Below are positions 42,890-63,500 of a DNA stretch of 64,000 bases, one piece after another. The stretch's first letter is position 1, and each line of letters opens with the position of its first letter. The position numbers were made by a program, and so were the translations under genes. The DNA is from Megalobrama amblycephala. Lineage: Eukaryota; Chordata; Actinopteri; Cypriniformes; Xenocyprididae. The DNA is taken from assembly GCF_018812025.1 (NCBI RefSeq), contig NC_063062.1, forward strand, positions 2,392,754 to 2,456,753, read 5' to 3'. The notes under the pieces are model-generated. The model was given only the letters and a program-made list of their open reading frames with translations. It was not told the origin of the DNA and searched no databases.

Positions 42890-45010
42890 GTGCAGTATCT
42901 GTCAAAAATTGCAGAATTAACTCTACCTGAACAGCTGGTTGTAGACCTGACCAGTGCTGTGAATCCAGGTTACATAGAGACAATTAAGGGCTTAAATTAT
43001 GATGAAATCAGCCTCAAAACAACACAGCTAACAGCTGAAGCAGCAGGCCAGGCCTTAAAGGGTGCCTCGCTAATCAAACTCCTCTCTAGCTTAGCACTAA
43101 ATTGGGCTGCTCAGTTAACCCAAGCAATAGACAGAGTATCCCTTGCTAATGGACAGATAAAAGATAGGGATATGACGATCCAACGGCTAAAGAGTGAGCT
43201 GGCTGATCTGCGTCATGCAAATGACCATTTGAAGGTTGAAGCCAATAGGTTGTCTGCAGAGAAAGAAGACTTGCAGTATATTACAGACAGCCAAGGAGCA
43301 GAAATCAATAGGCTAAAAGATGAAAATCTAGACCTAGAAACTGAGCTTGAACAGCTCAGGAAAGAACACTCAAGTTCAGTCACTGTACCCAGTAGCCAGG
43401 ATACAGCCGCTCTGCAAACAGAGCTTGCTCAGGCTCAAAATGATTTGTCGGCACAGGCAGACAAATTAAGGATAGTGAGTATCAGTGAGAAGCAGGCCAA
43501 AGATGACTTAAAGTCAGCCTTGTCTAAAATTTCTAGTTTGAAAATGGACTTAGAAATGGAACATAAACTGTGTATTGATGCCCGCGAGCAGTCAGAGTTG
43601 TTTAAACGACAACTGTACGATTCAAAACAGGCTCAGGTCCAACTCAGGGAGGACTTGGCTAGGGCAGACAATAAATTATTGGAAGTACAAAACAGTCATG
43701 ATAAAATTGCTTCCAGAGCCCGAGAGTGGGCAGATAAAGCTGATATGGCAGAGCAGAGGCTAGAGGAAATAGGGAAGAGAATGGAGCAGTTAGACATAAA
43801 TATGGACACACCCCATGAACCTGAACCACCAAGTGTGCGCTTCAGCTCATTTGGCCCACAGGTGAAAGATTCCCTACTTGATAGCCCCTCACAGAGACAG
43901 CGCTATCAGACCCATGGTGATGCAGTAGCTGCCAGTGGCCCAACCCCCACTGCTAGTCCCAGCCATCCTTATGGAGTAGATTCTGATTCACCTGTGTGGG
44001 GAAAAACTAGTCGCTCCATCCCGAATTACCATAGTATAGCACAGTCCAGAGACAGTAGGCTGCGTCATCTTAGGGAATTAGCACGTGACATTGAAGTGTT
44101 TAATCCTGACACCCCTGGTAGTAACATAGAGTTGTACCTTAAGGATGTAAACTATGCATTGTCATACATCCCTGAGGCCACTATGGCAGATAAGCTACTC
44201 CTTCTGAGGAAAACAACCGTGCGAACTGTCCATGGTTTCATGGAGAGACAAAGTCCTTCCATTGCTGGTAATTACAATGAACTGTGTAGGGCCTTGAGAG
44301 CAGAATACACAATATATCAAAACCCGTCGGTCTCCAGGCTTTCTGCCTTGCAAACCAAGCAAAATCGCTACGAATCACCCAGAGAATATTATGAACGCTT
44401 ACGCAGAGTGTATTTTGCTGGTGCTGATTCTCCTAGGGCAGAAGAGGATGTGATGTTTAAAAGTCTGTTTGTGAGTAATTTGCATCCAACAATTAGGAAG
44501 TCTCTTTCACTGCTGGTAGATGTTGACCACATGACTGCAGCAGAGTTAAGACAGCTGGCAATGCGAGCCTGGGAGAGTGAGAAGTTACACCCAGACAAGA
44601 AGGACAGGGACCCAGGCACTCATGTGTTTGAACTCCGACATGACAGGGAACCTCCCCTTGAACTAGAAGGTTCAGAGCTTCCCCAAAGCGGACCAGCTCG
44701 TCCTAGTCGCCCCTCACAGCCAAAGTCCAGTGAGTTCCAACAGGACACGCAGGGCCATAAATCCTCAAGAAATGGAGGATACAAGAGTGGCAGACATACA
44801 CACAGAGAGGATAGGCACAGGAGGTTCAGAGATAGATCAAATGACAGTCACAAACAGAGCAGTCAGAAGAAAAAGGAGTCCAAAGGGACTGAAGGAAGGG
44901 ATCGTGATAATTTGAAGCAAATTCAGAAAATACTTGCGAAAGCTCTCAAAGACCTTAAGTCAGAGGAGCACACATCCCCAGAAGAGAAAGACCCTCCTTC
45001 AAAGCAATGA
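42890..45010 (+). pseudogene. gag: ERV1 gag
   Basis: An open frame of 706 codons ends with TGA at 45008-45010. It starts at GTG directly after an in-frame TAG, and no ATG is present near the expected N-terminus, so initiation looks lost. Order: N-terminal helical region, long coiled coil (about residues 85-300), Pro/Ser-rich linker, a capsid-like helical domain (about 395-585; aligns with ERV2 Gag around RELARDIEVFNPDTPGS), and an Arg/Lys/Ser-rich tail without CCHC knuckles. Gag assembles the particle and packages RNA. pol follows in the same frame after TGA CTAG. Confidence 0.85.
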
Positions 45011-45014
45011 CTAG
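45008..45014 (+). promoter_or_regulatory. ERV1 gag-pol stop with readthrough context TGACTAG
   Basis: gag ends TGA and is followed immediately by CTAG, then an open frame in the same phase into protease. UGA-CUAG is the best-known leaky stop context in vertebrates and is used by some RNA viruses. ERV2 has the same seven bases at the same place. Confidence 0.7.
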
Positions 45015-45348
45015 GCCGGCACCCCTCCCCTCCCCCACCTAAAGTGTATTTGATAGGGTGGGGGGAAGAACCGGGGGAAGGGGGAACCATGCAACAGATT
45101 GTAAGGCCTAACCAATCAGATGTCAGTAGACCAAATCTCAGTCTCTGTCAGTTCCTTGGTGACTTGACGCAGAGAGGTAGAGCCAGAAGGATTTACATTT
45201 CTGTGTCCATTGAAGGTGTATTAACATGTGACGCACTGCTAGACACTGGCTCAGAAATCTCTTTGGTGTCACCTGGGTTGTTTAAAAAACTCACCCAAGT
45301 AACTAACTCACTTGGTAAGTGGCTCAAGATTGAGAGTTGTCAGATCAA
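45011..45348 (+). pseudogene. pol: ERV1 protease, 5' part of pol, cut by ERV2
   Basis: In frame with gag past its stop. A Pro-rich start leads to FLGDLTQRGRARRIYISVSI and the aspartic protease active site LLDTGSEISL. The frame is interrupted at 45348/45349 by the nested ERV2; the target duplication TCAA is 45345-45348. Pol resumes in phase at 60579. Retroviral protease matures Gag and Pol. Confidence 0.85.
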
Positions 45349-47147
45349 TGTAAGGACTTAGCCTATTTATTAGCTCAATTTAATTGTTACAGGGAATAAG
45401 AATTGAATCAACTGTAAATGATTCACTGTAAATGATTCAGAATTAATATTTAACACTTCATCAATTATTCGTCCAGCGAAAATTGAGGTTAGAGTATTTT
45501 ACCAATTCTGGATAAAATATTATTCTGCGGCCAACAGTAACAATATTTTATTATGATTATTGTTATTATTGTAATTATTATATTATAAGCAAGAGGTAAC
45601 TTGATCTTTGAGTTTAAGACAGTAATTTGATACACAGCACAAGAAACTCGTATATGTGAAAATCAAAACAAGATTTATTGACTACTTCTAATGATTACAG
45701 GAAACTAAGGCTAAACACACACACACACACACACACATACATACATGCACACACATTCGCGGAGTTGATGAGTTATGAAAAGTCCCAAGTTCAGTGCTAA
45801 CTTAACTCATAACCTGAGGAAAATCACAAAAGCAGAGCTTTGGCTTGATTCTTTAGGTTTAAAGGAGTTTCACCAGTTTCCAGCAAGAGAGAGAGAAGTT
45901 TGCTTGTACCTGCGTTTACTGTGACAGCTGAGGTACACAGCGGAGGTGTACAGCGGAATCCTGTTCTGGATTGGCTGTCTTTCAGGTGACGTCTTCTCGG
46001 GAAAGCCCTGTGGGTTGCGCGGAAGCTTTGAAGGATGCTGCTGGCTGAGCGTCTGGCTTGAGCGGCTCTCTTCTTGGGAGACTTTGGTCAGATATTTCAC
46101 GAAGTGTTTTGGAGTCTGGATGTGACGGCTGTTGAATGATCAGCGGCGCGGCTCGTGGTTGAAGTCGGGTGTTCGATGGAAAATCAGCCCCGGTCAATCA
46201 GTTATCAATGACCCATGCGACTTTTCCGCCGTGGTCAAAGTAGCGGTGCTTCAGTCCGGCTTCTGACCGATTTCGAGCGATTTCTGACCGACTTCGGACT
46301 GACTTCGGACTTCCAGCTTCTGACATTAGCTTGTTCGGACAGCATAGTTTTAAGGGAGCGATCCTCCAATGAGACGTTGCTACGGAGATTAGACACGCCT
46401 CGTCTATTGTCTATTGATCACATCGCGTGATATCTGCAGAACATTCTCCTGTTTTATTAACAACTTTATAAAGTTTCTTAATATTTTCCTGATACTGAAT
46501 TTCAATGTTTCATTCACACAGAATTACACAGAATTATAAATTCTGCATTTAGAACTCAAACATGACACACTTCTTACACACATATTACTAGACTGACCTA
46601 ATTAAAACAATGATTACAATAATGCATTTGAAGAAAACCCACATATTGAATACATTGAATAGACATGTTAGTAATTACATCATGGCATGTATTATTCTGT
46701 ATATAGTTAATACTTTAAGTAATCGACAATTGTCCCTTTTGAGATTCAAGATTGAGTCCTTAAGCATAGTTTAAACTTTGACCGGAGTCACGAGTGACCG
46801 GGTCACGATGGACGGTCAACACAAGGGAGGTATTGATAGGACAGATTCGTCTTTAAATCCGTTGATGGGTATTTTCCTGTTCCGTCCGATAATACAAGAG
46901 GGTTTTGTGAAAGAATCAATAGATTTAATGTGATCAAATCCACGTGATGGGTTCTGATTAGTTTATTGCTGATGAGCTAAGAAGTCCTTTAGACAGAGTC
47001 CTTTGTTAAAAGAAGTCACGTCATCACTTCTGTTAAGGCTAGGCGTTTCCTGTCAGGAAATGGATCTTTTGGACCAAATGAAGCTTTGTTCAATCATGTT
47101 GTTCATTGATAAAGTCATTGGTAAGTTCTGTCGAGCAATGCCCTACA
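45349..47147 (-). repeat. ERV2 3' LTR (1799 bp)
   Basis: On its strand it begins TGTAGGGCATTGC and ends CTAAGTCCTTACA. TTTATT at 45674-45679 reads AATAAA on -, giving a poly(A) signal about 330 bp before the LTR end. A (CA)n tract lies at 45716-45735. Confidence 0.95.
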
Positions 47148-47148
47148 G

Positions 47149-47158
47149 TCCCCCTTTT
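47149..47158 (-). promoter_or_regulatory. ERV2 polypurine tract
   Basis: On - reads CAAAAGGGGGA, one base before the 3' LTR start TGTAGGG. This is the standard place for plus-strand DNA priming. Confidence 0.85.
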
Positions 47159-47368
47159 GCTTGGCGAGGTTCCTGGTGCGAACGTCGGCAGGCACTGGAA
47201 CAAGAGGCAGAGAGAGAACAGACACACACAAGACACAAACAACATCTCCATCACTGACTGAATTCTGGGGAAGGACTTGGGTATCTTGGAATAAACGGGT
47301 TCGGAACACTTCAGCTAACGTAGGGTCGTACTGTTTAAGATCAGTTGTAATTGGTGGTTTCGACTAAT

Positions 47369-49150
47369 CTAATTGTCAGTGGTTCGACGAGGAGGTAGAG
47401 GCGTAATTTCAATCAGGTTGGTTGAGTTCTCGCGTTCAGGTTCTTGGTCAGTTCTATCACGTCGGAAAATGCGCGGGACGCCTGACGTGCATCTATCGAA
47501 AGATTCTTGCACGGCGTTCATTCGCTTGTGCAGGATGAAGGCCAGTGTCAAGGTCACAATATATCCTACAACAGTAGAGATGCAAAGTGCTGTGTCAGCA
47601 GCAGACCAAGACCGAATGAATGACACGCCAGCGGGCGGAAGGCGAGCTATAGCTTCTAAGGCTGTATCAACAGGAGTCAGATCAATAAGTTGTGTTCCTT
47701 CCTCCCTGATCCTTTCTTCCAATTCCGGATCGAGGACGAAGAAATGCTGTTTGAAGAACGGTGAGATTTCAAGTTCCGCCTGGTACTCATCGTCGCCAAG
47801 GTGATACAATGCAAGATCGTCTATGTGGAGGATCGAGCCCTTAGGGACACTGATCCAGAGGGTTTGGTTAGGCAGAATGATGCGCGTGGCAGTATCGTGT
47901 TGATCATAGGTAAGGGTAGCGGTACGTGCAGGGGTGTTGACTAACCATCGGTTTCCTATGATTTCGGCTTGCGTTGCCTCGACTTGAGACCATGGTGTAG
48001 CTTCAGCGGGGCAGCTAGTGTCGGGTCTAATTGATTCTAGGCCGCAGATGCCCTCGGTATTGTCGCGGACGAATGGTTTACTTGGGCAAAGGTAATGAAT
48101 GTCTTTAGTGAGCGTACACATTTTTAGGTTTGGGGCTAGATACAACTGTTCGTTGTTATCATGGTACGCCACGACCTCAGGGGTGTGTATTTTTACATAG
48201 GTGTTCCCTTGCCAAAATCCGACGTTAACAACGTCTTTGAGCCGGTAAATATTGTTTGAGTCGATAATGGGCAAACTGAGGAGGAAGGCCAAGTCGCCGG
48301 TTTCTGGGCTTACATATAGGGGAATAGCGCTACCCAGGGAAAAAGTGAGATGGGTTTGCACAGGGTTAACAGGGCCCGGAGTGGCCGAGGCTAGAATGTT
48401 TTGGACCAAGCTAAGGGGTATCAAATAGTAGGGGATCCTCCCCATGGCTAAGTTATCGATTGAGGAACTTATTTCCCTTAGCATATCGGTCATGAGTGTA
48501 GTTAGGAGTTGTATTTGGGCTAAATCGCATTGCACGACCGAAAATAGGGTGTTGATGGATTTTATCGTTTGATTGAGAAGGGTGCTATGGGTGTTTAAGA
48601 TTGTGATAGTCCCGTTCAAGGATTTCCTGAAGGTTTGCAAGGCCTGGCTCTGCACTGAGAGCTGTTGTCGTATTACAGGCATTTCGGCCTGTATTTCGCC
48701 CACGTGCCGTCTAACGGTGGCCAAATTTACAGCATTAGCAGTGCTCACGCCAATGTTAAACAGAGTTCCTACAGCCGCCGCAGCCCCAAGTAGGGTGCCC
48801 AAAAATCGTTTGGGACGCCGGTTGTACCCGCTTAAATCAGCCTGGGTTACAGTCATTTTCTGCAGTTGTTGCAGCATGTGGTTCACATCTGCCTGGGCAT
48901 GGCCAAGGATCTCCCTAGTCCAACGGCTTCCGGCCCAGGTGGTTTGAGCGGCTGTGGGGGTGTAGTGAGCTCTGACAACATCACGGGGGTTGAGTCTGAC
49001 ATAAACCCTTTGAGTGTAGGTTTTGCAGTTCGTTATCAATAACCCCGGTTGTTCACGGAGTACTATCCCTGACGCTGGTCCAGGTGACGCAACTTCTGGC
49101 TGGGGCATGACCCCAAGTATGCAGAGACACAAGGCAGCGAATTTGAGCAT
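47369..49150 (-). CDS. env: ERV2 envelope glycoprotein, class I fusion-protein-like
   Basis: ATG at 49150, four bases after a strong splice acceptor (CTCTATTACCAG|GGAG), gives 593 residues. Residues 1-22 are a signal peptide (LKFAALCLCILGVM). A short ectodomain leads to a furin-type site RRPKR (111-115), followed at once by a hydrophobic, Gly/Ala-rich fusion peptide (FLGTLLGAAAAVGTLFNIG). A long helical region and a large C-terminal ectodomain with N-glycosylation sites (NGT, NQT) follow. The membrane anchor is about 520-540 (CISTVVGYIVTLTLAFIL), with a ~50-residue tail. Subunit proportions (short N-part, long fusion part) differ from typical retroviral Env and resemble F-type fusion proteins. 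No CX6CC motif seen. No disruption. Confidence 0.85.
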   Translation of the reverse strand: MLKFAALCLCILGVMPQPEVASPGPASGIVLREQPGLLITNCKTYTQRVYVRLNPRDVVRAHYTPTAAQTTWAGSRWTREILGHAQADVNHMLQQLQKMTVTQADLSGYNRRPKRFLGTLLGAAAAVGTLFNIGVSTANAVNLATVRRHVGEIQAEMPVIRQQLSVQSQALQTFRKSLNGTITILNTHSTLLNQTIKSINTLFSVVQCDLAQIQLLTTLMTDMLREISSSIDNLAMGRIPYYLIPLSLVQNILASATPGPVNPVQTHLTFSLGSAIPLYVSPETGDLAFLLSLPIIDSNNIYRLKDVVNVGFWQGNTYVKIHTPEVVAYHDNNEQLYLAPNLKMCTLTKDIHYLCPSKPFVRDNTEGICGLESIRPDTSCPAEATPWSQVEATQAEIIGNRWLVNTPARTATLTYDQHDTATRIILPNQTLWISVPKGSILHIDDLALYHLGDDEYQAELEISPFFKQHFFVLDPELEERIREEGTQLIDLTPVDTALEAIARLPPAGVSFIRSWSAADTALCISTVVGYIVTLTLAFILHKRMNAVQESFDRCTSGVPRIFRRDRTDQEPERENSTNLIEITPLPPRRTTDN

Positions 49151-49591
49151 CTCCCTGGTAATAGAGCAGAGAAGAGGAACAATTAGCACCGAAGATCATG
49201 ATTTGGTAGGCTCACCTTCATTAGTTGGCAACGGGTTTTACGACAAACTCTAACGCTTTTGGTGAAGAGTAGTCAATCCTATTTTGGGATCTGAATCAGT
49301 TACGGGATTTTCCTGATGAGGGGAAGAGGGCAATGATAGTGAAAGAGGAGAAAGAAAGCATGAGGAGAGAGACAAGAAAACACAAAGAGACACAAGGACA
49401 CTGAGTTTACGAGAGCAAAGTGAGTGTCACATGTGTGAGGCAACTCCTTTCTACTAGAGGTTGTCACTAGCAGTGCTGTGGAGGAGCGTGTGTAAGTGTT
49501 GTGTAAAACAAAACCAGAAAAATAAAAGCAAAACTTTCCCTAAAATGACAAGTCATTAGTGTGGTGTAGAGTATGGGATTGTCGGTCTGTG
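49151..49591 (-). other. ERV2 pol-env spacer with env splice acceptor
   Basis: The pol stop (49592) and env ATG (49150) are about 440 bp apart, whereas many retroviruses overlap them. The right half is purine-rich on + (GAAAGAGGAG, GAGACAAG). The acceptor at 49155/49154 follows a pyrimidine tract on - (TCCTCTTCTCTGCTCTATT). Confidence 0.6.
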
Positions 49592-52500
49592 TCAGTGGGT
49601 TTGAACCTCCCCCTTTTCCTGTCGGTTGGAACCTTGGTGCCTCTTTATCTGGTTTCGATGGACCCATCGAAGGACAGGCTCGTTGCGGCCTTGTCTGATT
49701 TTGATTCGGTAGGCGACAGGCGAGAGCTTGTCCACAATCTCATGTGGTCCTGTCCAATGAGGTAGGAATTTCTTTGACAGGCGATGGGGAGCTTTCTGCC
49801 TTGGCTGGGCAAAGCTGTAGTACCACACTTTGTCTCCGACATTGAGTTCTTGGTAAGAGGCCTTTTTGTCGTAGTAGGCTTTACGACCTTCCGCGCTTCT
49901 CTGGAGGTTTTGTTGGGCGAAGGCGAAAGTCGCTCTCAGGTGCTGATGCAACTCTTCCAGATACTGGGGAGTGGTGTAGGCGGTGACGAGGTTCATGTCA
50001 CCAGGTTGGTACAGCAGGTGTAGCGGTAGTGTCATTTGTCGCCCTGTCATCATTTCGAATGGGGCTACTCCGGTAGACCGGTGAGGGGTGGCCCTGATGG
50101 CCATCAGTACCAGAGGGAGCTTGATATCCCAATCCTTTTGGTTGGCGGACACATACTTCTTCAACATGCTTGCCACTGTCTTGTTGGCCCGTTCGACCTG
50201 CCCTGAGGAGATTGGATGATGGCTTATGTGAAGCTTGGCCTGTATGCCCAGGAGTTTCCATACATCCTGCATAACCTCAGTGGTGAAGTGGGTTCCTCGG
50301 TCAGAATTGACTCTTAGAGGCAGTCCAAGTCTTGAGAAGATGTGGTTCATTAACAGGCAGGCTGTTGTTTCTGCTGTATCGTTGGGAGCTGGGAGACACT
50401 CTACCCACTTTGTGAATTCGCAAACCACGGTGAGGAAGTATTTGTTACCCCGTGTTGACCGTGGCAGGGGTCCTACCCAATCTATTTGGAGGTCTGACCA
50501 TGGGAAGGTCATTCCTTTCCGTTGTAGTGGTGCTCTGTGGTTTGGGTTTGCCGGTTGGAACTGGCAACACACCAGGCATCCTTTTACGTATTCCGTCACA
50601 TCTTGCTTCATGCCAGGCCAATATGCTACTTGTTTGAGCGTTTCATAGGTGGCCTTGGCGCCATGGTGTCCAGCGCATGGTGCATTGTGGGCGTGTGTCA
50701 GCATTATCCCCCTTTGGCTCTGAGGAACTACAAGCTTTGGCGCAGTTAGGGGCTCAGGGACATATGTGAGAATGCCGTCCTTGAGATGCAGCATGTGCTT
50801 GATTGAGTGAAGGTGGCGGAGATCAGAGGAATTGGATAGGTCGGAGGTGGAAATGGGATGAGTTATTGGGTCGGAAATGTGAGCGATAATGGTTTGCAGC
50901 GTTGGATCCGACGCTTGGAGGGTGAGGAGATCATCCGCAGTGAACTGAGGTGAGAGTTCAACATGGGAGGAGGCGGGGGTTTGCTCGCCAATGGCGTGCT
51001 GGCGGCGGGTTATGGCTGCAACTGAAGGGTTGGGTGGGAGGGATGGGAATTTCCAAGGCTCTCCATGTGATGCACCTGCTTTGGCAAGGGCATCGGTTTG
51101 GTCATTGAGATCTTTGTCTTGCCCTGGTTGGCGTGAATGACCGCAGACCTTTTTCCAGTAGATGATCATGTCATGTGTGGTGACAATGGTATCGCATGCT
51201 TGGAAAAGTTCCTGATGTTTGACAGGCTTGTTGTTAGCTGTCTTAAATCCGTTCTGTTTCCATCCGGCTAGATGGCATGTGAAACTTAGACGGGCATAGT
51301 TCAAGTCAGTACATATCAGGAGTTCTTTGATGTTGTGGGAGGCGGCCAGTTGTAGGGTGATGAGGACGGCTGCTATCTCTGCATATTGCGATGAGTGAGG
51401 GCCTAACTTGAACTGTTGTGGTGGGTAAGGGTCATTGTTGAGCCAGACCACGCCTGCTCCCGCTTTCAAGTTGCCTTGTTGATTGTAGGAGCAGCCATCG
51501 ACATATGCTGTGGGCATGCCTTCACACACATTCTCCTCGAAGTACATATAGTTTGTCAGTTGCGGTGGTGCTGGTTCTTTGGCTTCTGCTGAGGTATTCA
51601 GCGTGTCTGTTGAACAGCTCTGATAGGCTGCTAGCCCGTTTCCCAGTGAGGATTTGTGGTTTTGGGCATATCTTGCCTCGACGTCTCGTCCTTGGAGCGT
51701 CATTAACCATGTAGCTATGCGGGCGTTGGTTACCACGCCATCCCTGATTCGTTGGCTGTTGAGGAAGGTCACTGGTTGGTGACACGTTTCAATGATAACC
51801 TTCTGAGATCCAATGTAGTTGGAGAAACGCTGAATGGCCCATACAGTGCAAAGCCGGGCTTTTTCACAGTCTGAGTATTTGCATTCTGGGGGAAGCAAGG
51901 TTTTGCTGGCATAAGCGACCACCCGTTTGTCTTTGTCGTGGAGCTGGTACAGACCTGCACTGAGGCAATGATTGGAGAATCCAGCTTCCAGATAGAATTC
52001 TTTTCCTGGGTAGGGGTAGGTGCTGTTGCAGGGTCGGATGACCCCCTTTTGTAGCATGGAGTCAATGATATCTTGCACTGATTCGTATGATGCTATCGGA
52101 ATCTTGTACTGCCGCACAAATGTCGGTGGCGCATTTGGGTGAGTTGGGATGCGCACCATGTGGATATCAGTCAGGCCACAGTCCAGGGAATCCTTTGCGA
52201 AGGAGTCCTTATATTTGCACAGAACTTCTTTAAGTCCTTGGCGATCCATTTCACTGTGGAGGGCATCCGCCTCGCTCAGGATTTGTTGGACTTGTGCATT
52301 GAACCCAGCGTAGGGTTCCTCTGAGTCATTTGAGGGACTGTGGGCCTTGACAGTCAGTTCTACAGGTGACTCTGTTGCAGTCTGTGTTGACACAGCGTAG
52401 ACAGCGAGGTGAGTGTCATCTGTAAGTTCTGATCGGCAGACACTTTCTTTAGGCACCGGCAGAATAGAAGTGATGGTGATGATCTCATGGGGCTTTGTGC

Positions 52501-54157
52501 AAGTTACGGTGTTGTGGCATTCATCTGACATTAGTTCAACTGGTATGTGGCCGATGACAGGAACTGTCAGTTCAAAGTCGTGGAACGCCTGGTTGATGAG
52601 CCATCCCAGGTGACTGGCTTTTGGCACATTGATGTCTTTGGCCGTACAGTTGTTGAACAACACATACACAGCACGAGATGACACTTCTATGAGAGGTGTG
52701 GCTTCCAAGGTCAGTCCTAGTTTTAGGCAGGTCCTGGAAGGTTGGAAGAAGCCTAGCTTACTGTTAAGGGTCTGGCCAGGTCGCATGTTGAGGCGGACAC
52801 TGACACTCTTGCTGTAAGCGGGGATTGTGGCTTCTTGCTCGTTGATCATGGCGCATGCATCTGGTATTGTTTGCCCAGATCGAAGATTCTTGAGGTTGAC
52901 TGAAGATGTCAATTGGTGTGACAAGGGAGCCCATATGATGTCATTCACGGTGTCAACGCAGGCGTTGAGACGGACCATGATGTCTGCTCCTATGTAGATG
53001 TCATGAGGCAGGTTGGGGACAACCAGGAAGTAGTGACTCAAGAGTCTGTCATTCCATCGTATGTCTGCAGCACAGACGATCTTTGAGGTAGCCATATTTG
53101 TTGAACATGGATTGAGAGGGAAGCGGCTATGCTTCGAGACGTGTGGTATGCTCTGATTTGTCTGCTTCAATGTTCTGAAGAACTTCAGGCTGATAGCGGA
53201 GTTTTCAGCCCACAGGGCTAATGCTGCATCAGGCACTGATGTGTCTTGGACATTTATGGCAGTCATGATTCGGAGGGAACCTGAGTCTGACGCTTGCAGT
53301 GAGCAGAGGAATGGGTCTTGGTTCTTGTTGCTTGAAGTGGAACTTGCTCTTGACTTTGAACTTGCATCGTCAGTCAGTGGATGGGGGGCGGTGTCTGTGG
53401 CTTGACACTGCAATTCGTTCAGGTTTACTGACTGGAGGGGCAGAGGCTCACGGACTTGTGTCCATATCTTCAGGTGTTTGAAGTCTATTAAGGGTTCAAA
53501 GCGGTTAAGCAGGTCTTTCCCAATGAGGAGAGGATATGTGTTGAGTGGTGAGACGTATACTGGGTGAACAAGGTTCATTGGTCCCACTGTTAGGTGAATT
53601 GGGGCCACATGTTTTAGTTGTAGGCCTGTGTGGGAATATGCTTGGAGGTTCAGCTCACACCTTTGAAGTTTGAAGGTTCCGTTAGACCTCTTTGTTCTGT
53701 TTTGGAATTCTTCAAGGAGTTCTGTTGACATTAGGGTGATGTCAGCTCCAGTGTCGAGGAGGGCTTCGACCTTGATGTGTTGTTCGATGATAATGGAGAG
53801 GTAAAACTTTCTTGCGATACCTTTCTCAATGAGATCACCCAGGAGTTGGGGGACTGGAGTTTGGGATGATAGAGGTAGGATGTCAGCATTTATTTCATTT
53901 TCTTCGGAGGAGTGGCAGATGACCAAGACAGCACTTTCAGGAACTGGAGTGGTTTCCACAGCAGGTGTTTGTTGGATGCTGCTGTGATCTGACCCATCAG
54001 GTGTTGGATCAGTTTCTGACTGTTTTGTGGGATGTTCAGGTGGGACTTCTTGTCCGTTTGGAGTTATGGTGCTTGTGGTTCTCTGGGCGAGAGGTGAGGT
54101 GCTATTCTCTGGGGTCTGTTGAGTCAGGTGGTCGCTGCCATCTCGTCCGGCCACTAG
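49592..54157 (-). CDS. pol: ERV2 pol (protease, RNase H, integrase; RT core deleted)
   Basis: About 1521 codons, in phase with gag and opening directly after its TGA. There is no ATG at the start (GTG at 54154, counted as residue 1), so a Gag-Pol fusion is implied. Protease LLDTGADITL (DTG at 134-136); a ~500-residue region before RT (also in ERV1); RT fingers up to about residue 713; then connection and RNase H (VDG ~885, AEIAA, CTDLNY, NDQTDALA). Integrase has an HHCC finger and D(~1223)-D(~1286)-35-E catalytic triad (IDWVG, NSDRG, QVERANK), then a C-terminal domain. At 52010-52018 the fingers join straight to the segment before the connection: ~210 residues including the catalytic YVDD, kept by ERV1, are absent without frame loss. 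It cannot reverse transcribe unaided. Confidence 0.93.
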   Translation of the reverse strand, partial: LVAGRDGSDHLTQQTPENSTSPLAQRTTSTITPNGQEVPPEHPTKQSETDPTPDGSDHSSIQQTPAVETTPVPESAVLVICHSSEENEINADILPLSSQTPVPQLLGDLIEKGIARKFYLSIIIEQHIKVEALLDTGADITLMSTELLEEFQNRTKRSNGTFKLQRCELNLQAYSHTGLQLKHVAPIHLTVGPMNLVHPVYVSPLNTYPLLIGKDLLNRFEPLIDFKHLKIWTQVREPLPLQSVNLNELQCQATDTAPHPLTDDASSKSRASSTSSNKNQDPFLCSLQASDSGSLRIMTAINVQDTSVPDAALALWAENSAISLKFFRTLKQTNQSIPHVSKHSRFPLNPCSTNMATSKIVCAADIRWNDRLLSHYFLVVPNLPHDIYIGADIMVRLNACVDTVNDIIWAPLSHQLTSSVNLKNLRSGQTIPDACAMINEQEATIPAYSKSVSVRLNMRPGQTLNSKLGFFQPSRTCLKLGLTLEATPLIEVSSRAVYVLFNNCTAKDINVPKASHLGWLINQAFHDFELTVPVIGHIPVELMSDECHNTVTCTKPHEIITITSILPVPKESVCRSELTDDTHLAVYAVSTQTATESPVELTVKAHSPSNDSEEPYAGFNAQVQQILSEADALHSEMDRQGLKEVLCKYKDSFAKDSLDCGLTDIHMVRIPTHPNAPPTFVRQYKIPIASYESVQDIIDSMLQKGVIRPCNSTYPYPGKEFYLEAGFSNHCLSAGLYQLHDKDKRVVAYASKTLLPPECKYSDCEKARLCTVWAIQRFSNYIGSQKVIIETCHQPVTFLNSQRIRDGVVTNARIATWLMTLQGRDVEARYAQNHKSSLGNGLAAYQSCSTDTLNTSAEAKEPAPPQLTNYMYFEENVCEGMPTAYVDGCSYNQQGNLKAGAGVVWLNNDPYPPQQFKLGPHSSQYAEIAAVLITLQLAASHNIKELLICTDLNYARLSFTCHLAGWKQNGFKTANNKPVKHQELFQACDTIVTTHDMIIYWKKVCGHSRQPGQDKDLNDQTDALAKAGASHGEPWKFPSLPPNPSVAAITRRQHAIGEQTPASSHVELSPQFTADDLLTLQASDPTLQTIIAHISDPITHPISTSDLSNSSDLRHLHSIKHMLHLKDGILTYVPEPLTAPKLVVPQSQRGIMLTHAHNAPCAGHHGAKATYETLKQVAYWPGMKQDVTEYVKGCLVCCQFQPANPNHRAPLQRKGMTFPWSDLQIDWVGPLPRSTRGNKYFLTVVCEFTKWVECLPAPNDTAETTACLLMNHIFSRLGLPLRVNSDRGTHFTTEVMQDVWKLLGIQAKLHISHHPISSGQVERANKTVASMLKKYVSANQKDWDIKLPLVLMAIRATPHRSTGVAPFEMMTGRQMTLPLHLLYQPGDMNLVTAYTTPQYLEELHQHLRATFAFAQQNLQRSAEGRKAYYDKKASYQELNVGDKVWYYSFAQPRQKAPHRLSKKFLPHWTGPHEIVDKLSPVAYRIKIRQGRNEPVLRWVHRNQIKRHQGSNRQEKGEVQTH

Positions 54158-54160
54158 TCA
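54154..54160 (-). promoter_or_regulatory. ERV2 gag-pol stop with readthrough context TGACTAG
   Basis: On -, gag ends TCC TCC TGA and continues CTA GTG GCC in the same phase, open for 1520 further codons. It has the same TGACTAG heptamer as ERV1 at 45008. Confidence 0.75.
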
Positions 54161-56083
54161 GGAGGAATCTGGTTTCTCTTTCTTTTCCCACTTCCGGTCA
54201 TCCTCCTTTCGTTGGAAGAACTCTTTCATCATCATTTTCATCAGTTCTTGAGAGTCGAAACAAGGTGAAGTCTTTTGTTCTGGTATGGATTCATTTTGAG
54301 CTCTGTCAGCTTGGAATCTTTGTGAGTTTTTTCGTTGATTCCTTGGGCTGGTTGCTCCAGGGTGTGTTTGTCGTTTTCCCTTGGATTCCCATGAGCCTTT
54401 TCCTCTGGTGTTTCCAAATGAGCTTGGGTGATTCCAGGTTTTCTCCCAATGACTCTCATGAGGTCTTGATTGGTTCCATGAATTTTCCCAGTGACGTCCA
54501 GGTGAGCGTTGTCGTCCACGTGGTCCATCCCAGCGGTTGTCTCTCTGTTTAGGTCGAGTACCAGTGTGGGAGTCCCACTCTCTGTTGGACGAAGATGCAT
54601 TCCACTCTTTGGGTGTCGGCTTGGCAAGGTCTTGATGCTGGGTGCCCTCTAGGGCCAGCCCTTGATTCTGGGTGTTGAAGTCAAGAACTGTGGTGGTTTT
54701 GGTGCCCTTTTCTAAGGCCATCTTCTGTTTACAGTAGGCTTTGTGCGCCAAGTCTCTTAACTGTTGAGCACTCATTGTGCGTGGACAGGCAAGGACGCCA
54801 AGATGGTGGCTCACCCCAGGATGGAGGTTTCTCAGGAAGAGAGTTTTGAAGTTCAATTCCTCCTCCATGTTCTGTTCGTTGTGAGACCCGAAGTACGCTA
54901 GCCTTAGTCGGCTATAGAAGACTTGAGGAGTTTCGTGACGACCTTGTTTTGTTTCCAGGGCAGCCACTAGTCCTCGTTCTGACTCGGGGTCGGCAAACTC
55001 TTTGATGAGAGCTTCTTGGAGCAGGTGGTAATCAGTCTTTGTGTGGGCAGGCTGCCGGTCCAGGAAGCTGCGCACTTCAGAGCTGGATGTGGCTCTGAGC
55101 AAATAAAGTCTATCTTTGTCAGTGACATTGGGTCTCATCTCCAGATGGAAGTCAATATCTTGCAGATAACTCTGAACATTTGGACTACCTGGCACATTTG
55201 GAGTGAATTTGCCAATGTTTCTAGCAAGCTTGTCAAGGTCTCTGAGGTCCAAGCCATGAGATGATCTGTGGCTGGCTGGAGCACGTTCTTTTAGCTTAGT
55301 GGGGAGGTAGGATTCTTCGGAGGGAGCTGGTGACTGTTTTGGCACTGCCCCCTTCTGATCATGTGCCAGTCCAGGAACAGGGGAGCCGGTCCTGCTTGGC
55401 AAAGGTGACGTCGGTGTCCGACGTGTTCTTGACGGCTCACAGCGCAATTCATATGCATGCTTGAGTTCCTCTTTAATACTGTCAGACTCTTCTTTGATGT
55501 AGTCAAGCTGTTGTTTTAGGCGGCTGACCTCATTTCTTGACTCATTCAGGTGAGTTTCGAGAGCTTTAATTCGGCTGTTCTTGTCTCTGAAGTCAGCCTT
55601 TGCTTTTTCCAGTAGCTGTTCTGCGTATTGTAGCTTGTCGGAGAGGTCAGCGTAGTCTGCTCTGCCTCGTTCCATTTCTTGCGTAGTAGCTGCTAGGGTC
55701 TCTTTTAGCCTGTTGATCTCCTCTTTTGCGCCTTGTTCCACTTCATCAGGCCCTTCTCGTCGTTCCTGAGCCTCCAGCTCCAGCTGTTCGATGCGTCGTT
55801 GTGCATGTGTCAGCTCCTGCTGGCGATGGGCGGCTTGCCTGTTGCTCAGTTTGAGGGTGGCGATGAGTGTGTGGCTTAAGGAGCCGGTGATCTTGGCTAG
55901 TTCTTTGTGACTGTAGCTCTGGCTTGGGTCCTGTTTCATGAGGCTTGCTATGTTGTCATCCAGCTGGTCCTGTGTCTGATGCTTTAGTGTTTCAGCGGCC
56001 TGAGATAAGAGGCTGTCTGTTACAACACTTAGCCAGGTCTCCAGATCCTTCCAGTGTCCAGCAGGGTCTGTTGTGCGAGACAT
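54158..56083 (-). CDS. gag: ERV2 Gag polyprotein, coiled coil, no zinc knuckles
   Basis: ATG at 56083 (a GTG three codons upstream is also in frame) gives 641 residues. Order: N-terminal helical region, coiled coil (about 85-215, heptads such as LKQQLDYIKEESDSIKEEL), Pro/Ser/Arg linker, capsid-like domain (about 285-470; LDKLARNIGKFTPNVPGS, FLRNLHPGVSHHLGVL), then an Arg/Trp/Gly-rich tail (RGRQRSPGRHWENSW). No CX2CX4HX4C motif. Loss of knuckles in favour of basic boxes and an N-terminal coiled coil recalls foamy virus Gag, but gag and pol here share one frame, unlike foamy viruses. No disruption. ERV1 Gag has the same plan. Confidence 0.9.
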   Translation of the reverse strand: MSRTTDPAGHWKDLETWLSVVTDSLLSQAAETLKHQTQDQLDDNIASLMKQDPSQSYSHKELAKITGSLSHTLIATLKLSNRQAAHRQQELTHAQRRIEQLELEAQERREGPDEVEQGAKEEINRLKETLAATTQEMERGRADYADLSDKLQYAEQLLEKAKADFRDKNSRIKALETHLNESRNEVSRLKQQLDYIKEESDSIKEELKHAYELRCEPSRTRRTPTSPLPSRTGSPVPGLAHDQKGAVPKQSPAPSEESYLPTKLKERAPASHRSSHGLDLRDLDKLARNIGKFTPNVPGSPNVQSYLQDIDFHLEMRPNVTDKDRLYLLRATSSSEVRSFLDRQPAHTKTDYHLLQEALIKEFADPESERGLVAALETKQGRHETPQVFYSRLRLAYFGSHNEQNMEEELNFKTLFLRNLHPGVSHHLGVLACPRTMSAQQLRDLAHKAYCKQKMALEKGTKTTTVLDFNTQNQGLALEGTQHQDLAKPTPKEWNASSSNREWDSHTGTRPKQRDNRWDGPRGRQRSPGRHWENSWNQSRPHESHWEKTWNHPSSFGNTRGKGSWESKGKRQTHPGATSPRNQRKNSQRFQADRAQNESIPEQKTSPCFDSQELMKMMMKEFFQRKEDDRKWEKKEKPDSS

Positions 56084-56881
56084 GTTTGGCACTGCGAGGG
56101 AGGTCTAAACCTGAAACTGACACAGACCTTGAAGAAAAGAACAAAACAAAACAAAACAAAGCAGGGCAAATCAAAGGTGTAAGTATGCAATGTCAACTGT
56201 GAGTTAATGGGAATGAGTAATGAGTGTGTAAATGTGCAGGTAAGACTGGTTCTCGACTGTGGTCCTCTCGTGGATGTGCTTCTAACTCGGAGTCTCTGTG
56301 AAAAGAATCAATAAGCACACACAGATAGCACAGCTAGAGAACAGCAGAAGAAAAGAAGAGCACGAAACAAACAAGATAGCATTTAGCAAAGAGCAGAGTA
56401 ATAATGGGGTGCTTCCAGATTCCCTATAAGATGAAGTTTCTGTCTTTAACACTATTTGCAGAATGAGTTTTGTAAAATTTTTATTTTAGAAGGATGGTTC
56501 TAGACAGGGGTTTTGAAAAGGATTTCAAAGTACCAGGACTGTGATTGTTATTAAAATTCCCTTCGGGGCGAAAGAAAAACAATAACAATGACAGTATTGG
56601 TTTCTCAGCTAGTAGGATTGACAACCATGCACCACTTAAAGCGCTTCTAGACGCGTGCTCAGGGTTTATGGACGCCTACCAGTCTCCTCGTCGACCTGCT
56701 CGAGCCTAGGCTGGGTAGGATAACAGGATGAGGAGGGAAGGTAAAGTGAGTGTCATACTATTTTAAAAGAAGTGTTCCGTTTCCCAAATATTTGTTAAAT
56801 ATTTCTCAAACACTCTGCTTTTATGACTTTCACAGGTACAAATCCAAAAACCAGCAGAAGTAGTCAAACCAGAAGAGGACA

Positions 56882-56915
<34 letters not shown>

Positions 56916-58779
56916 AGAAGAAAGAGAGTGAAGTTTTGCTCCCAAAATTTGGAAAAATTACAGGGTTGACAGAGTGGTGGCACTAGGGAGTCGCTACACC
57001 TAGGGGGTTGGCTTACTGCGCCAGCAGGAGAAGTCAACTGACCCAAGTATTGAGGGAGACCCCAAAATTTTCCTTTAAATAAATGAATTAAATCAAAGAC
57101 TGAGGGAGTGAAAGTCTGAGACTAAACTTTATTTTAAATGAAATTTTGAATTCAAATTTGGAAGTTGTGAATTAAAATTGTAATGGGTTCAGCATTAAAC
57201 ATTGAGAGCAATTATAATCAAATTAATTAATCAAGTATCATCTGAATTAGGGAAGCCCACATCCTTATTAATGACTAATGAAATTAAAATTTCAAAGCCA
57301 TAATTATTAGTTAATGATTACAATTGACAGATGTTGGTAAGGAACTACCATTAAATTAATCCACAAATATCCCTACCATATGAAATTGATTTACAATTAA
57401 AATTGAAATCGAATTAAAATTCCCAATCAAAAATTCATATTCCCAGATGTCATTAAAATCAATAAGAGCAATTACAAATAACATAAAATGTCATTAAAAG
57501 TAATTAGGACGATTGCTACTAAAACAAAACAGTGTTTAACTGACAAGAGTAAATTTAGGAGAGAGAACTCTCAAACAAATGGTATTAAAAACCAGGTTTA
57601 TTAATTTAACATTTGTTAAGTTCTTTCAAATGGGAGGAGATGAGAAAAGATAAGATGTGTAAGTTAGACAGAGAGAGAGAGAGAGGTGGAAGCACTAGAG
57701 TGAATTAAAGTTCAGTAAGAAAGACGTCATTCCAACATTGCAACATTGCATTCAGACCACAAAATGCTATGCTAGCCACTAGCCCTTTAGCAATGCTACT
57801 AGCTTTACATAGACTGTAATGCAACCGCGCTAGTTTTAGCTAGCTCAGCTTGTGCTAAGCTTTGTTTACACACAGTTGAATATGGCGCTGGCAGACTGCG
57901 TATGCGCACTTAAAGGTTATCCCGGGAAAGGTTTCTTAGGGCTTCCGGGTTACAGCTGTCACTGTCGTGGTGACCGTGACGCACCACAAAGAATACCCTT
58001 GTTCTATACTCTTTGCACACAGATAACAAACATACAAAATCACATTAATCATTGAACTGACGGCGCAGTTCTCAATGACAATGAACCATTCAGCTTCTCA
58101 TGTTTCCGAGCTGAACAACCCCCACACGTTAGAGTGAGGCACATTAATCCACAGATTTTTCTGCAATTAATAATAGTAACATTACTGAGATCTCGGCGAT
58201 CTGAATCGTTCGTGTCAGTTTCTGGACACGCAACAACATGCAGGATTTACTGCAACAATACTTGATCAAGAATTTTCAAAATAATCCCATTCAAATCAAA
58301 CTCAGACACGTATAGTGTTTAGAGTATTAATATCTCATCTCACGAATGAGCGGATATAGGCGGCACATTAGGTAGCTACTCTCTAATGTGACCATGCAGG
58401 GATTTTAGCTTAGTTGAAATAACATTGGAACACGCAATATTATCCACTATAGCTAAGGCCTTAAAGGAACCAAAAGCAAGGAACACGCTTACTCTGTCCT
58501 GGTGCGCTCTCAGGCGACTTTCCTTTTGTCTTGGCAGACAATCTTAGATTCATTTACTGCAGTTTTAACAACAACAACAACAACAAAACGTACAGACAAA
58601 CAACTCGAGTTCAGATTTCATTCATCCACAGCGCCTTATGTGCAATCATTGTTATGACAATCAAAAAGCCTCGTTTCTGTTTCTAATCTATCTTCCGGAT
58701 CAAGAAAAGATACAATCACACAAGTTACTTGTTTTGTGTACAAATTAGATTAAACTGCACAAATTTTTCTCCACCATTA
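56084..58779 (-). other. ERV2 5' leader, about 2.7 kb
   Basis: Non-coding, very long for a retroviral leader. On -, after the primer-binding site, a likely splice donor CAGA|GTAAGC lies at about 58492, ~290 nt from the LTR, matching the ERV1 donor. A (GA)n tract is at 56883-56912. TTTATT at about 57129 reads AATAAA on -, which could cause premature polyadenylation. A GC-richer patch at 57850-57990 contains CpGs. Shared structure with the ERV1 leader shows it belongs to the virus family rather than being a local insert. Confidence 0.7.
58759..58777 (-). promoter_or_regulatory. ERV2 primer-binding site, diverged
   Basis: Downstream of the LTR edge ...CCTTACA on - comes TAA then TGGTGGAGAAAAATTTGTGC. 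The first ten bases equal the ERV1 tRNA-Ala site (TGGTGGAGAA) but the rest does not pair with tRNA-Ala. Surrounding bases (GCAGTTTAATC) again match ERV1. Confidence 0.55.
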
Positions 58780-60574
58780 TGTAAGGACTTAGCCTATTTA
58801 TTAGCTCAATTTAATTGTTACAGGGAATAAGAATTGAATCAACTGTAAATGATTCACTGTAAATGATTCAGAATTAATATTTAACACTTCATCAATTATT
58901 CGTCCAGCGAAAATTGAGGTTAGAGTATTTTACCAATTCTGGATAAAATATTATTCTGCGGCCAACAGTAACAATATTTTATTATGATTATTGTTATTAT
59001 TGTAATTATTATATTATAAGCAAGAGGTAACTTGATCTTTGAGTTTAAGACAGTAATTTGATACACAGCACAAGAAACTCGTATATGTGAAAATCAAAAC
59101 AAGATTTATTGACTACTTCTAATGATTACAGGAAACTAAGGCTAAACACACACACACACACACATACATACATGCACACACATTCGCGGAGTTGATGAGT
59201 TATGAAAAGTCCCAAGTTCAGTGCTAACTTAACTCATAACCTGAGGAAAATCACAAAAGCAGAGCTTTGGCTTGATTCTTTAGGTTTAAAGGAGTTTCAC
59301 CAGTTTCCAGCAAGAGAGAGAGAAGTTTGCTTGTACCTGCGTTTGCTGTGACAGCTGAGGTACACAGCGGAGGTGTACAGCGGAATCCTGTTCTGGATTG
59401 GCTGTCTTTCAGGTGACGTCTTCTCGGGAAAGCCCTGTGGGTTGCGCGGAAGCTTTGAAGGATGCTGCTGGCTGATCGTCTGGCTTGAGCGGCTCTCTTC
59501 TTGGGAGACTTTGGTCAGATATTTCACGAAGTGTTTTGGAGTCTGGATGTGACGGCTGTTGAATGATCAGCGGCGCGGCTCGTGGTTGAAGTCGGGTGTT
59601 CGATGGAAAATCAGCCCCGGTCAATCAGTTATCAATGACCCATGCGACTTTTCCGCCGTGGTCAAAGTAGCGGTGCTTCAGTCCGGCTTCTGACCGATTT
59701 CGAGCGATTTCTGACCGACTTCGGACTGACTTCGGACTTCCAGCTTCTGACATTAGCTTGTTCGGACAGCATAGTTTTAAGGGAGCGATCCTCCAATGAG
59801 ACGTTGCTACGGAGATTAGACACGCCTCGTCTATTGTCTATTGATCACATCGCGTGATATCTGCAGAACATTCTCCTGTTTTATTAACAACTTTATAAAG
59901 TTTCTTAATATTTTCCTGATACTGAATTTCAATGTTTCATTCACACAGAATTACACAGAATTATAAATTCTGCATTTAGAACTCAAACATGACACACTTC
60001 TTACACACATATTACTAGACTGACCTAATTAAAACAATGATTACAATAATGCATTTGAAGAAAACCCACATATTGAATACATTGAATAGACATGTTAGTA
60101 ATTACATCATGGCATGTATTATTCTGTATATAGTTAATACTTTAAGTAATCGACAATTGTCCCTTTTGAGATTCAAGATTGAGTCCTTAAGCATAGTTTA
60201 AACTTTGACCGGAGTCACGAGTGACCGGGTCACGATGGACGGTCAACACAAGGGATGTATTGATAGGACAGATTCGTCTTTAAATCCGTTGATGGGTATT
60301 TTCCTGTTCCGTCCGATAATACAAGAGGGTTTTGTGAGAGAATCAATAGATTTAATGTGATCAAATCCACGTGATGGGTTCTGATTAGTTTATTGCTGAT
60401 GAGCTAAGAAGTCCTTTAGACAGAGTCCTTTGTTAAAAGAAGTCACGTCATCACTTCTGTTAAGGCTAGGCGTTTCCTGTCAGGAAATGGATCTTTTGGA
60501 CCAAATGAAGCTTTGTTCAATCATGTTGTTCATTGATAAAGTCATTGGTAAGTTCTGTCGAGCAATGCCCTACA
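58780..60574 (-). repeat. ERV2 5' LTR (1795 bp)
   Basis: Nearly identical to 45349-47147. Differences seen by eye include A/G at 45913 versus 59345, G/T in GCTGAGCGTC versus GCTGATCGTC, GGGAGGT versus GGGATGT, GTGAAAG versus GTGAGAG, and a CA tract shorter by two units. Confidence 0.95.
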
Positions 60575-63500
60575 TCAAGATAACCAGCTACACACAGGAT
60601 CAGGCCCCGATTAACCAGCGGGTGTGGGTGGAGTTAACCTTTGGTGAAATGAAGATAGTTCACCCTCTCTATGTTGTTGGTTTTGACACAGAACAACTTC
60701 TTATTGGCCAGGATTTGTTGAATAGGCTCACACCACTAATTGACTATCACAGCTGTCAATTGTGGGCATAAGCTAGAATCCCACGACCCATTGAGGAGAC
60801 TAGTTCTGGTCAGAAGCTATGCAATGCAGTGGAGGTAGAAAGGACATGTGACTCTAGACAGCTGACAGTGAAGGAAGCCCACCTGAATGAAGAGGCACCC
60901 GCTGTGAGGGAAATGCAAATCATTAGCCCCCAGTCAGCAGACATGGCTCATGAGAACAAGATCCCCCTAGAGCTGTTAGAGAAGAAACATGCATTTCTGT
61001 GTGCCCTGGAACCTCTTAACACCCAGTTGTATAATCCACAGGTGGTGGGGGGCATACATGTTAATGAAGTACTGGTTGAGGATGCTGTAATCGCACTCTG
61101 GTCAGAGAATTCAGCCATAAATCAGGAACTGTATCAACTGTTACAGGAAAAGCCTTGCAAAATTCCTATGGTTGAAAAGAAGCAAAAATTCTGGCTTGCT
61201 GGTGGCTCCCAGAAAACAGTTAAAAGTGTTGGAGTTTGCTCTGTCTCCCTTGAGATTGGCCACAAAAATTTCAAGCACTATATGCTTGTGTTACCTGACC
61301 TGACACACTCAGTATACATTGGTTCTGATGTGTTAGTGAGACTAGGGGTGCAGTTAGACACAGTCCACAATGTGCTGTGGTCCAGAGCAGATATTGGCTT
61401 TAACATATTATCTTGTGATGCTAATAACATGCGTTCTGGCCAGACAGTTCCCCAAGCATGTCAGGTTATGAATGAGTTTGACACAGTGGTCCCTGCCCAA
61501 ACTGCAGAGGTCCCAGTCAGACTAGTCATAAAAAGGGGTCAAGAAATGAACCAGACAGTACTAGCCTTTTTCCAGCCCTCTGCTCAGTTTTGCAGTTTGG
61601 GACTTACAATATGTGGTAACCCACAGCTTGAATTGTACAACCGCTCAACTTACCTACTTGTACAAAATTTCACCAGAGGAAGTATTCGCATTCCTCCACA
61701 TACTCCTCTAGGATACCTGATTGATAGCTCCTTTCATGATTTTGAATTAACTATTCCTGTCATAGGAGAGCTTCCCGACTTGCCTATAGAGAGAGACAAC
61801 TGTGAGCAAGTGTATCTCACCTACCCTACCAAGATGATTTCCATCATAACCCTCCCAGGTGTGTCTGAGGAAGTCATCTGTAGAATACAGAGATTCAGCG
61901 TCAGGAATTAAGACAGGTGTTTTATGAGCACAAGGAAATCTTTTCTAAGGATTCCTATGATTGTGGAGTTACAGATGTCCATACTGTCCATATTCCCACA
62001 GATCCAAATGCACCGCCTACCTTTGTGCGGCAATACAGAATTCCACTCACTGCTTTTGACTCCATTCAGGAAATTATTGATTCCCTGTTAGAGAAAAAGA
62101 TCATACGTGAATGCAATTCCACCTACAATTCTCCAGTTTGGCCTGTTTTAAAGCCAAGTGGAAAGTGGCGTTTAACTGTTGATTACCGGCAACTCAACAA
62201 ACAGGTTCCCCTGTCACGTTGGCCTATGATACATCTTGACCAAGAGTTAGCAAAGGTTACTACAGCTAAATATTTCTCCACAGTTGACGTTGCAAATGGA
62301 TTCTGGACAATGAAGGTAGACCCAGCAGATCAGTATAAGCTAGCATTTTCTTTTGGAGGTAGACAGTTCACCTGGAACAGGTGCCCATTTGGCTATTCAA
62401 ACTCTCCTGCAGAGTTTAATATATTTCTACACAAGGCAATGGGTGATGCAGCTACGTGTGGAAACCTGATCTATGTTGATGATATCCTTATGCGTAGCCA
62501 GACATGGTCAGACCATCTAACTGAGATACGACATGTTCTCACCCAGCTCATTGAGGCAGGTGCTAAATTGTCATTATCCAAAGGACAGTGGTGTAGAACA
62601 AAAGTGGAGTACGTAGGACTGACTGTTGGTCCTGAAGGTATTCAACCTCAGTCTAGTAGAATAGAAGCAGTAAAGAATATTAAACCTCCCACAAATATCT
62701 CTGAACTGCGTAGCTTCCTGGGAGTATGCAATTATTCCCGTCAGTTTATAGAAGATTATGCAGATATCGCCAGACCACTGCATGAACTGCTACAGAAAGG
62801 TAGAGAATTTAGCTGGGAGGAAAGTCAGGCACAGGCTATGAAAGAACTGAAGGACAGGTTGTGCACGGCCCCATGCCTAGCCTATCCTGACAAAGACAAA
62901 GAGTTTTTCCTTCAGGCTGATTTTTCAGAGCACTGCCTCAGTGCAGCACTCTCCCAAAAGCACGACCAGGATAAGCGGGTTGTAGCCTATGCTAGTAGGG
63001 CACTGAGTAGTGTAGAGATTAAGTTCTCAGACTGTGAGAAAGCCTTACTTTCTACAGTGTGGGCAATTGAACACTTTTGTAGCTATATTGGGGGTCAGAA
63101 AGTCATTGTTGAGACATGTCATCAACCTGTCCAGTTCCTCAATAGCCAAAGACTCAGGGAAGGTAGAGTTTCAAACAGTCGCATTGCCACATGGATGATG
63201 GCCTTGCAAGGATATGAGGTGGAGGTGAGATATGCACAGAACAATAAAATGGCATTAGGCCATGGACTAGCTATGTGCCAGCATTGCGTTGATGGAGAAT
63301 ACACTCAAGAAGCCAACACAGTAATCACCACACCCTCACTGACATCAAGCCATCACTACTATGATGAAAATGTCTGTGCAGGCCTTCCTAAGGCCTACAT
63401 TGCATTGATGGGTATCACCATGAACAACACATACAGGCTGGAGTAGGATTAGTCTGGGAGGCTGACACCCCCTGTGGTGCACAGCAGTTCTGTTTAGGCC

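Follow-up and report, generated by a model that had tools for sequence, protein, structure and literature searches.

A reverse-transcriptase-less endogenous retrovirus of Megalobrama amblycephala, very probably mobilised by full-length relatives

A provirus that lacks the core of reverse transcriptase (RT), the enzyme that defines retroviruses, raises the question of whether it lost that core where it stands or was already without it when it inserted. The provirus considered here, an endogenous retrovirus called ERV2, lies in a 64-kb stretch of the Megalobrama amblycephala genome (C19:2392754-2456753), referred to as the window, and was compared with the whole assembly of 1.11 Gb in 243 contigs. 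An earlier note on this DNA had proposed either a very recent deletion after insertion or a lineage that does not move on its own and is mobilised in trans by an RT-bearing relative. The former is contradicted by the occurrence of the same join in 13 copies, while the latter is supported by those 13 joins, by flanks that differ in all eight copies with a readable boundary, by separate target duplications in four of five copies and by a clean RT stretch in 12 of 18 full copies. ERV2 is thus very probably one of the non-autonomous members, lacking RT, of a high-copy family that is young and resembles lokiretroviruses, and was mobilised with helper RT.

The deletion is located by two features, given in window coordinates:

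49592..54154, minus strand: pol, 1520 codons, with the RT core missing (open frame and Pfam)
52016..52019, minus strand: join A, where the RT fingers (CNSTY) are fused to the pre-tether segment (PYPGK) and 759 nucleotides (nt) are gone at a CCTAC microhomology (translation, homologue gaps, sister copies and genome scan)

The frame and its translation confirmed the earlier description of pol as open over 1520 codons, with CNSTY meeting PYPGK at residues 713/714. The missing stretch, previously put at about 210 residues, is corrected to 253 codons (759 nt) by ERV1, the related element into which ERV2 is inserted, by protein homologues and by sister copies. Between the flanks, 253 residues are found in ERV1 and in 38 of the 61 protein homologues (out of 76) that align on both flanks, the gap falling within 245-255 residues in 46 of these 61, and a second set of 110 shorter proteins gives exactly 253 residues in 5 of the 15 with both flanks aligned. 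At the DNA level, 17 of the sampled loci retain a stretch between the breakpoint sides, which measures 759 nt in 11 of them and 724-760 nt in the rest. The same join occurs in none of the protein homologues with both flanks aligned (61 of 76; 15 of 110). Xyrichtys gene models apparently without RT (P0056, P0064 and P0174) were set aside as possible products of gene-model introns, and a search of viral contigs gave no match.

The microhomology suspected at the join is real, since CCTAC is present at both breakpoints in sister copies, which read ...AGCA CCTAC TCC... on the 5' side and ...TGG CCTAC CCC... on the 3' side, with ...AGCA CCTAC CCC... in the deleted form; the 759 nt were therefore lost between two CCTAC repeats. 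The Pfam search of ERV2 pol matched the protease, tether, RNase H and integrase domains, with RVT_1 absent, whereas L006, a full sister copy, matches RVT_1 over the corresponding region at an expectation value (E) of 7e-27, its 759-nt stretch containing YVDD and no stop.

Genome-wide searches demonstrated that other copies have the same loss. With 500 nt from upstream of the join as query, 131 candidates were returned, the best 40 of which were scored and proved 97-100% alike. From the 186 candidates returned by a 400-nt query across the join (best 40 scored), 30 loci were retrieved, and the two sides of the join are directly adjacent in 13 of them, ERV2 included. Scanning with a 24-mer pattern and at most two mismatches gave the same 13 copies, on eight contigs, eight without mismatch and five with one, and the reversed-pattern control gave 0. 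An exact 30-mer over the join had matched only once, which would imply a private deletion; this was overturned by the 400-nt search and the 24-mer scan, the 30-mer being unique because ERV2 alone among the 13 has T in the codon adjoining the join. A deletion confined to the ERV2 locus, which would have told against the earlier proposal, is contradicted by the identical join in 13 copies. An assembly error, for which a high-copy family of such likeness offers a setting where collapses happen, is scarcely credible, as the same join is found at 13 loci, most of them in contigs 36-63 Mb long, and five nucleotides are presumably too short to mislead an assembler.

The matching scan for an intact 5' breakpoint found 42 copies (control 0). 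Altogether, the 55 copies with the site comprise 13 with the deletion of ERV2 (type A), 11 with a second RT deletion described below (type B) and 31 with neither, RT-deleted forms amounting to 24 of 55; full copies, as counted here, are the 18 sampled among the 31. Two near-identical full-form loci, L008 and L009 (C7:35434602 and 35422908), stand 11.7 kb apart, possibly through tandem or segmental duplication.

Signs of integration were read at the ends of ERV2 and of other deleted copies. For ERV2, they are the following:

45349-60574, minus strand: ERV2 provirus, from long terminal repeat (LTR) to LTR
58780..60574, minus strand: 5' LTR (TG..CA), by LTR-pair comparison and boundary reading
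45349..47147, minus strand: 3' LTR, by the same means
45345..45348, no strand: left copy of the target-site duplication TCAA, by flank reading
60575..60578, no strand: right copy of the same duplication, by flank reading
58759..58776, minus strand: likely primer-binding site of TGG type (TGGTGGAG..., 3 nt past the 5' LTR), by eye
47149..47158, minus strand: polypurine tract adjoining the 3' LTR, by eye

The two LTRs of ERV2 are identical at 1792 of 1800 positions, differing by four substitutions and one 4-nt gap within a CA repeat. Among the five type A copies whose LTR pairs were compared, ERV2 has the fewest differences, with 4 mismatches in 1796 aligned columns, followed by L036 (6/1857, where about 10 columns extend beyond the LTR), L034 (11/1694), L033 (14/1517) and L041 (15/1746). 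Target duplications of 4 bp (TCAA, CCAG, AGCT and TTTG) were read in four of these five. Additionally, the 5' flanks (150 nt) were compared for the eight of the 13 type A copies with a readable 5' LTR boundary, and no pair matches at E 0.001. The same join, combined with differing flanks and separate target duplications, indicates that the RT-less form integrated repeatedly; most simply, retroviral integration would have placed it at several sites and on several occasions. One deleted copy, L078 (C9:20653100-20656100), has a second LTR in opposite orientation just beyond its 5' LTR.

As for the enzyme, all 18 sampled full copies span the RT stretch, 12 of them with no stop or frameshift, and these relatives are the predicted source of RT. 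The course of events may be pictured as follows. An in-frame loss of the 759 nt that separate two CCTAC copies would have befallen one genome, probably through a template jump of RT during DNA synthesis. ERV2 still has both LTRs, the primer site, the polypurine site and open frames for Gag and Env as well as for protease, RNase H and integrase. The deleted RNA would have been packaged in particles carrying the RT of full-length relatives, copied and integrated repeatedly, and co-packaging with full genomes could have reshuffled the sequence around the deletion, as the conflicting trees suggest.

These trees, built from 870 nt on the 5' side, 630 nt adjoining the join and 740 nt after it, scatter the deleted copies among the others, in positions that differ from tree to tree. 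In the trees, as in the association test, frame counts and dN/dS values below, the others are the 26 sampled non-A loci, consisting of 18 full copies, 6 of type B and 2 with a 35-nt loss. Such mixing of deleted and full copies suggests template switching between co-packaged genomes. Shared variants are present as well: 29 are common to at least two deleted copies and found in none of the 26 other loci, including those at positions -112 and -55 relative to the join, each carried by five deleted copies. Furthermore, no sampled copy is closer to ERV2 than L034, or to L034 than ERV2, the two differing by 0.8%. From the conflicting trees and the shared variants, we infer that one deletion was handed round by template switching, with the caveat that closeness to ERV2 governed the sampling of the other loci.

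Type A copies differ from one another by 2.5% on average and full copies by 1.2%, figures subject to the same closeness bias in sampling that is noted below. The ratio of nonsynonymous to synonymous substitution rates (dN/dS) is 0.37 in 11 deleted copies and 0.31 in 17 others, values in which selection and inheritance by recombination are inseparable. No stop or frameshift occurs over more than 2200 nt around the join in 7 of 13 deleted copies and 7 of 26 non-A loci, a loose comparison because 7 of the 26 are without the 3' part and unable to qualify.

Several points weigh against the spread of one deletion by mobilisation. In the approximately unbiased (AU) test, run on 12 deleted and 19 other rows, a single clade of the deleted copies is rejected for 1000 nt around the join (p 0.033) and for the 5' 500 nt (p 0.006) and is not rejected for the 3' 500 nt (p 0.13), a mixed outcome read here as recombination, and the nearest sampled copy is non-deleted for 10 of the 13, being deleted for ERV2, L034 and L036 only. 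The deletion is associated with variants at 14 of 54 sites (p<0.05), a count reached by 0 of 300 label shuffles, 2% of which reach the smallest p, yet a single origin is not thereby established, because the comparison loci were chosen by their closeness to ERV2 and bias the test. The LTR-pair comparison covers five of the 13 type A copies and leaves eight, and in one of the five, L034, the 3' LTR is truncated and the target duplication unreadable. A scatter of this kind would also result from repeated deletion or from gene conversion acting on inserted proviruses. Trans-mobilisation is the most likely reading of the sequences.

Under gene conversion, the deletion would have arisen once and been copied onto other inserted proviruses in the germ line, with no mobilisation. 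Local conversion patches would fit the scattered tree positions and the short shared tracts, and copies of the family are about 95-99% alike, which is compatible with such exchange. However, to reach 13 of the 55 copies, spread over eight contigs, conversion between dispersed sites would presumably have to proceed at a high rate; the mutual nearness of ERV2 and L034 also speaks against it, and for the family HERV-K(HML-2), the authors favoured recombination at the reverse-transcription stage over conversion, according to the accessible part of the source (PMC3228705). Gene conversion is therefore considered rather improbable, and trans-mobilisation with template switching is preferred.

Other RT losses in the family were also characterised. 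The principal one, type B, ends at the following position:

51265..51265, minus strand: 3' end point of type B, a deletion carried by other copies and not by ERV2 (sampled loci and genome scan)

In 6 of the 26 sampled non-A loci, the sequence proceeds 295 nt into RT and then jumps to window position 51265, losing 1215 nt (405 codons) in frame between ends that share one base. YVDD is lost with it and, by position, so are the tether, what remains of RT and slightly more than half of the RNase H match. Genome-wide, type B was found in 11 copies (C1:25439138 and ten other places), with 0 mismatches in 29 nt and a control of 0, all of which fall by coordinates within the 42 with an intact 5' breakpoint. 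One of them, L016, continues into sequence 98% like window 28889-29489, which adjoins frames resembling a long interspersed element (LINE) at 26611-29473 (RVT_1 and endonuclease). Two further loci outside the 42, L010 and L025, 99.5% alike over 2643 nt, have in common a frame-shifting loss of 35 nt at the RT start; L010 runs on into a stretch of N. The relative P0088 displays another in-frame loss across RT, with ..IIRP joined to VTFLN.. in the tether.

These losses bear on recurrent deletion, in which the same CCTAC repeats would have caused the 759-nt loss many times, during reverse transcription or after insertion. The 5-nt microhomology is genuine, and RT-region losses with other end points exist, as type B, the 35-nt loss and P0088 demonstrate. 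Nevertheless, only type B exceeds 100 nt among the RT-region losses whose end points are known in the 26 sampled non-A loci, and it is present in 11 copies although its ends share a single nucleotide, from which it follows that spread, not microhomology, explains the repeated joins there. Recurrent deletion is accordingly viewed as very unlikely beside the trans-mobilisation of one deleted form.

Both abundant deletions, A (253 codons) and B (405 codons), are in frame, and the sole shared frame-shifting loss seen is that of two sampled loci, which hints that translation of a shortened Gag-Pol matters in cis; this is conjecture, because a loss falls in frame by chance once in three and two such events once in nine. 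It is possible, though doubtful, that in-frame RT loss is favoured in this family, RT-less genomes translating a Gag-protease-integrase polyprotein that would aid their own RNA in cis while parasitising the RT of full-length relatives. If true, such genomes would be a retroviral counterpart of defective interfering genomes.

The remaining coding features of ERV2, all on the minus strand, are the following:

54158..56092: gag, 644 codons, with a mechanical GTG start and the first ATG at codon 4 (open frame)
54158..54160: in-frame TGA separating gag and pol, then CTAG, a candidate readthrough stop (sequence reading)
53501..53791: aspartic protease domain (Pfam)
51692..52009: RNase H-like tether, RT_RNaseH (Pfam)
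51071..51511: RNase H, the second RNase H domain (Pfam and solved-structure match)
50552..50728: integrase zinc-binding domain (Pfam)
50213..50491: integrase core (Pfam and solved-structure match)
47369..49189: env, 606 codons, with weak likeness to the paramyxovirus fusion glycoprotein, PF00523 (open frame and Pfam)

The open frames of gag, protease, RNase H, integrase and env, and the near identity of the LTRs, bear out what had been noted before. Open frames as a sign of function were rejected, since about 0.37 nonsense changes are expected over gag, pol and env at the measured LTR divergence, and the chance of none is 0.69 (0.39 at the upper bound). Gag and pol share one frame, interrupted by TGA CTAG (54140-54175, minus strand). 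TGA followed by CTAG is a context favouring readthrough, and we take the TGA to be a candidate stop of that kind. Four relatives (P0010, P0067, P0008 and P0011) have tryptophan (W) at this position, either as a sense codon or as TGA read under another table.

ERV2 is inserted within ERV1, whose plus-strand parts are 42890-45346 and 60575-63679. Pieces of ERV1 pol matching ERV2 pol lie at 45149-45346 and, in several parts, from 60628 to 63679, the homology breaking at 45346. Elsewhere in the window, positions 8001-10000 (GC 0.23, GC skew -0.56) are unlike the rest.

The element family of ERV2 looks like a lokiretrovirus, judging from its domains. Lokiretroviruses are marked by a tether with a second RNase H, an Env resembling the fusion proteins of Mononegavirales, and an RT phylogeny that groups them with Odin elements as sister to canonical retroviruses, as set out in the accessible part of PMC9040795. 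ERV2 lacks RT, and its likeness accordingly rests on the RNase H pair and Env. The former is found as RT_RNaseH (4.7e-19) and RNase_H (1.4e-18) in tandem. The latter is found as a PF00523 match of E 1.1e-6 and 27.8 bits, below the Pfam cut-off of 29.8; the domain is precomputed in 28 of 96 Env homologues, though not in the closest one (best 7998 candidates scored), and ERV2 Env has no significant match among solved structures. The integrase part matches Ty3 at 2e-37 and prototype foamy virus (PFV) at 5e-25, values of pairwise match strength and not of phylogeny. All organisms that the three homologue lists name are fishes, with cyprinids as the closest.

Should this reading hold, the family is one in which RT, though it defines retroviruses, is dispensable in cis, with nearly half of the copies (24/55) deleted for it. 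Two in-frame deletions beside full-length sisters in one genome provide a natural test case, in the little-studied lokiretroviruses, for how defective genomes spread, how templates are switched and how elements are mobilised in trans.

Parallels to the RT-less form of ERV2 are known in IAP I-delta-1, HML-2 type 1 and Bik-1. Lokiretroviruses as described in the available text of PMC9040795 share with ERV2 the tether, the second RNase H and the fusion-like Env, but they carry RT; in the open literature on them, including the accessible part of PMC12440569 and leaving most subscription journals outside its scope, no RT-less subfamily of this kind was found. Closest in scheme is the mouse intracisternal A particle (IAP) I-delta-1 form, in which, according to the part of PMC6466679 that was available, many insertions have one internal deletion in common and keep an open Gag-Pol fusion, proteins are needed in trans, and the deleted form is behind most new insertions. 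The resemblance is one of outline: the I-delta-1 deletion takes 1.9 kb out of gag and pol in elements without env, whereas ERV2 loses the RT core only and keeps its other frames open, and IAP is reported (same source) to be mobilised in trans and to show a cis effect, whereas the ERV2 form is known here from its sequence. In HERV-K(HML-2), the type 1 deletion was found in 20 of 75 classifiable copies, is polyphyletic and was explained by rescue and recombination, as far as the accessible text goes (PMC3228705). Its share, about a quarter, is similar to the 13 of 55 of type A, but it consists of 292 bp at the pol-env border, spares RT and belongs to another virus group and host. Finally, zebrafish BHIKHARI-1 (Bik-1) is a recently active lokiretrovirus relative whose reference copies all lack pol, from which its authors infer complementation (PMC10996621, accessible part). 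Bik-1 encodes Gag only, while the ERV2 form misses RT only, and the two are likened by description rather than by sequence kinship.
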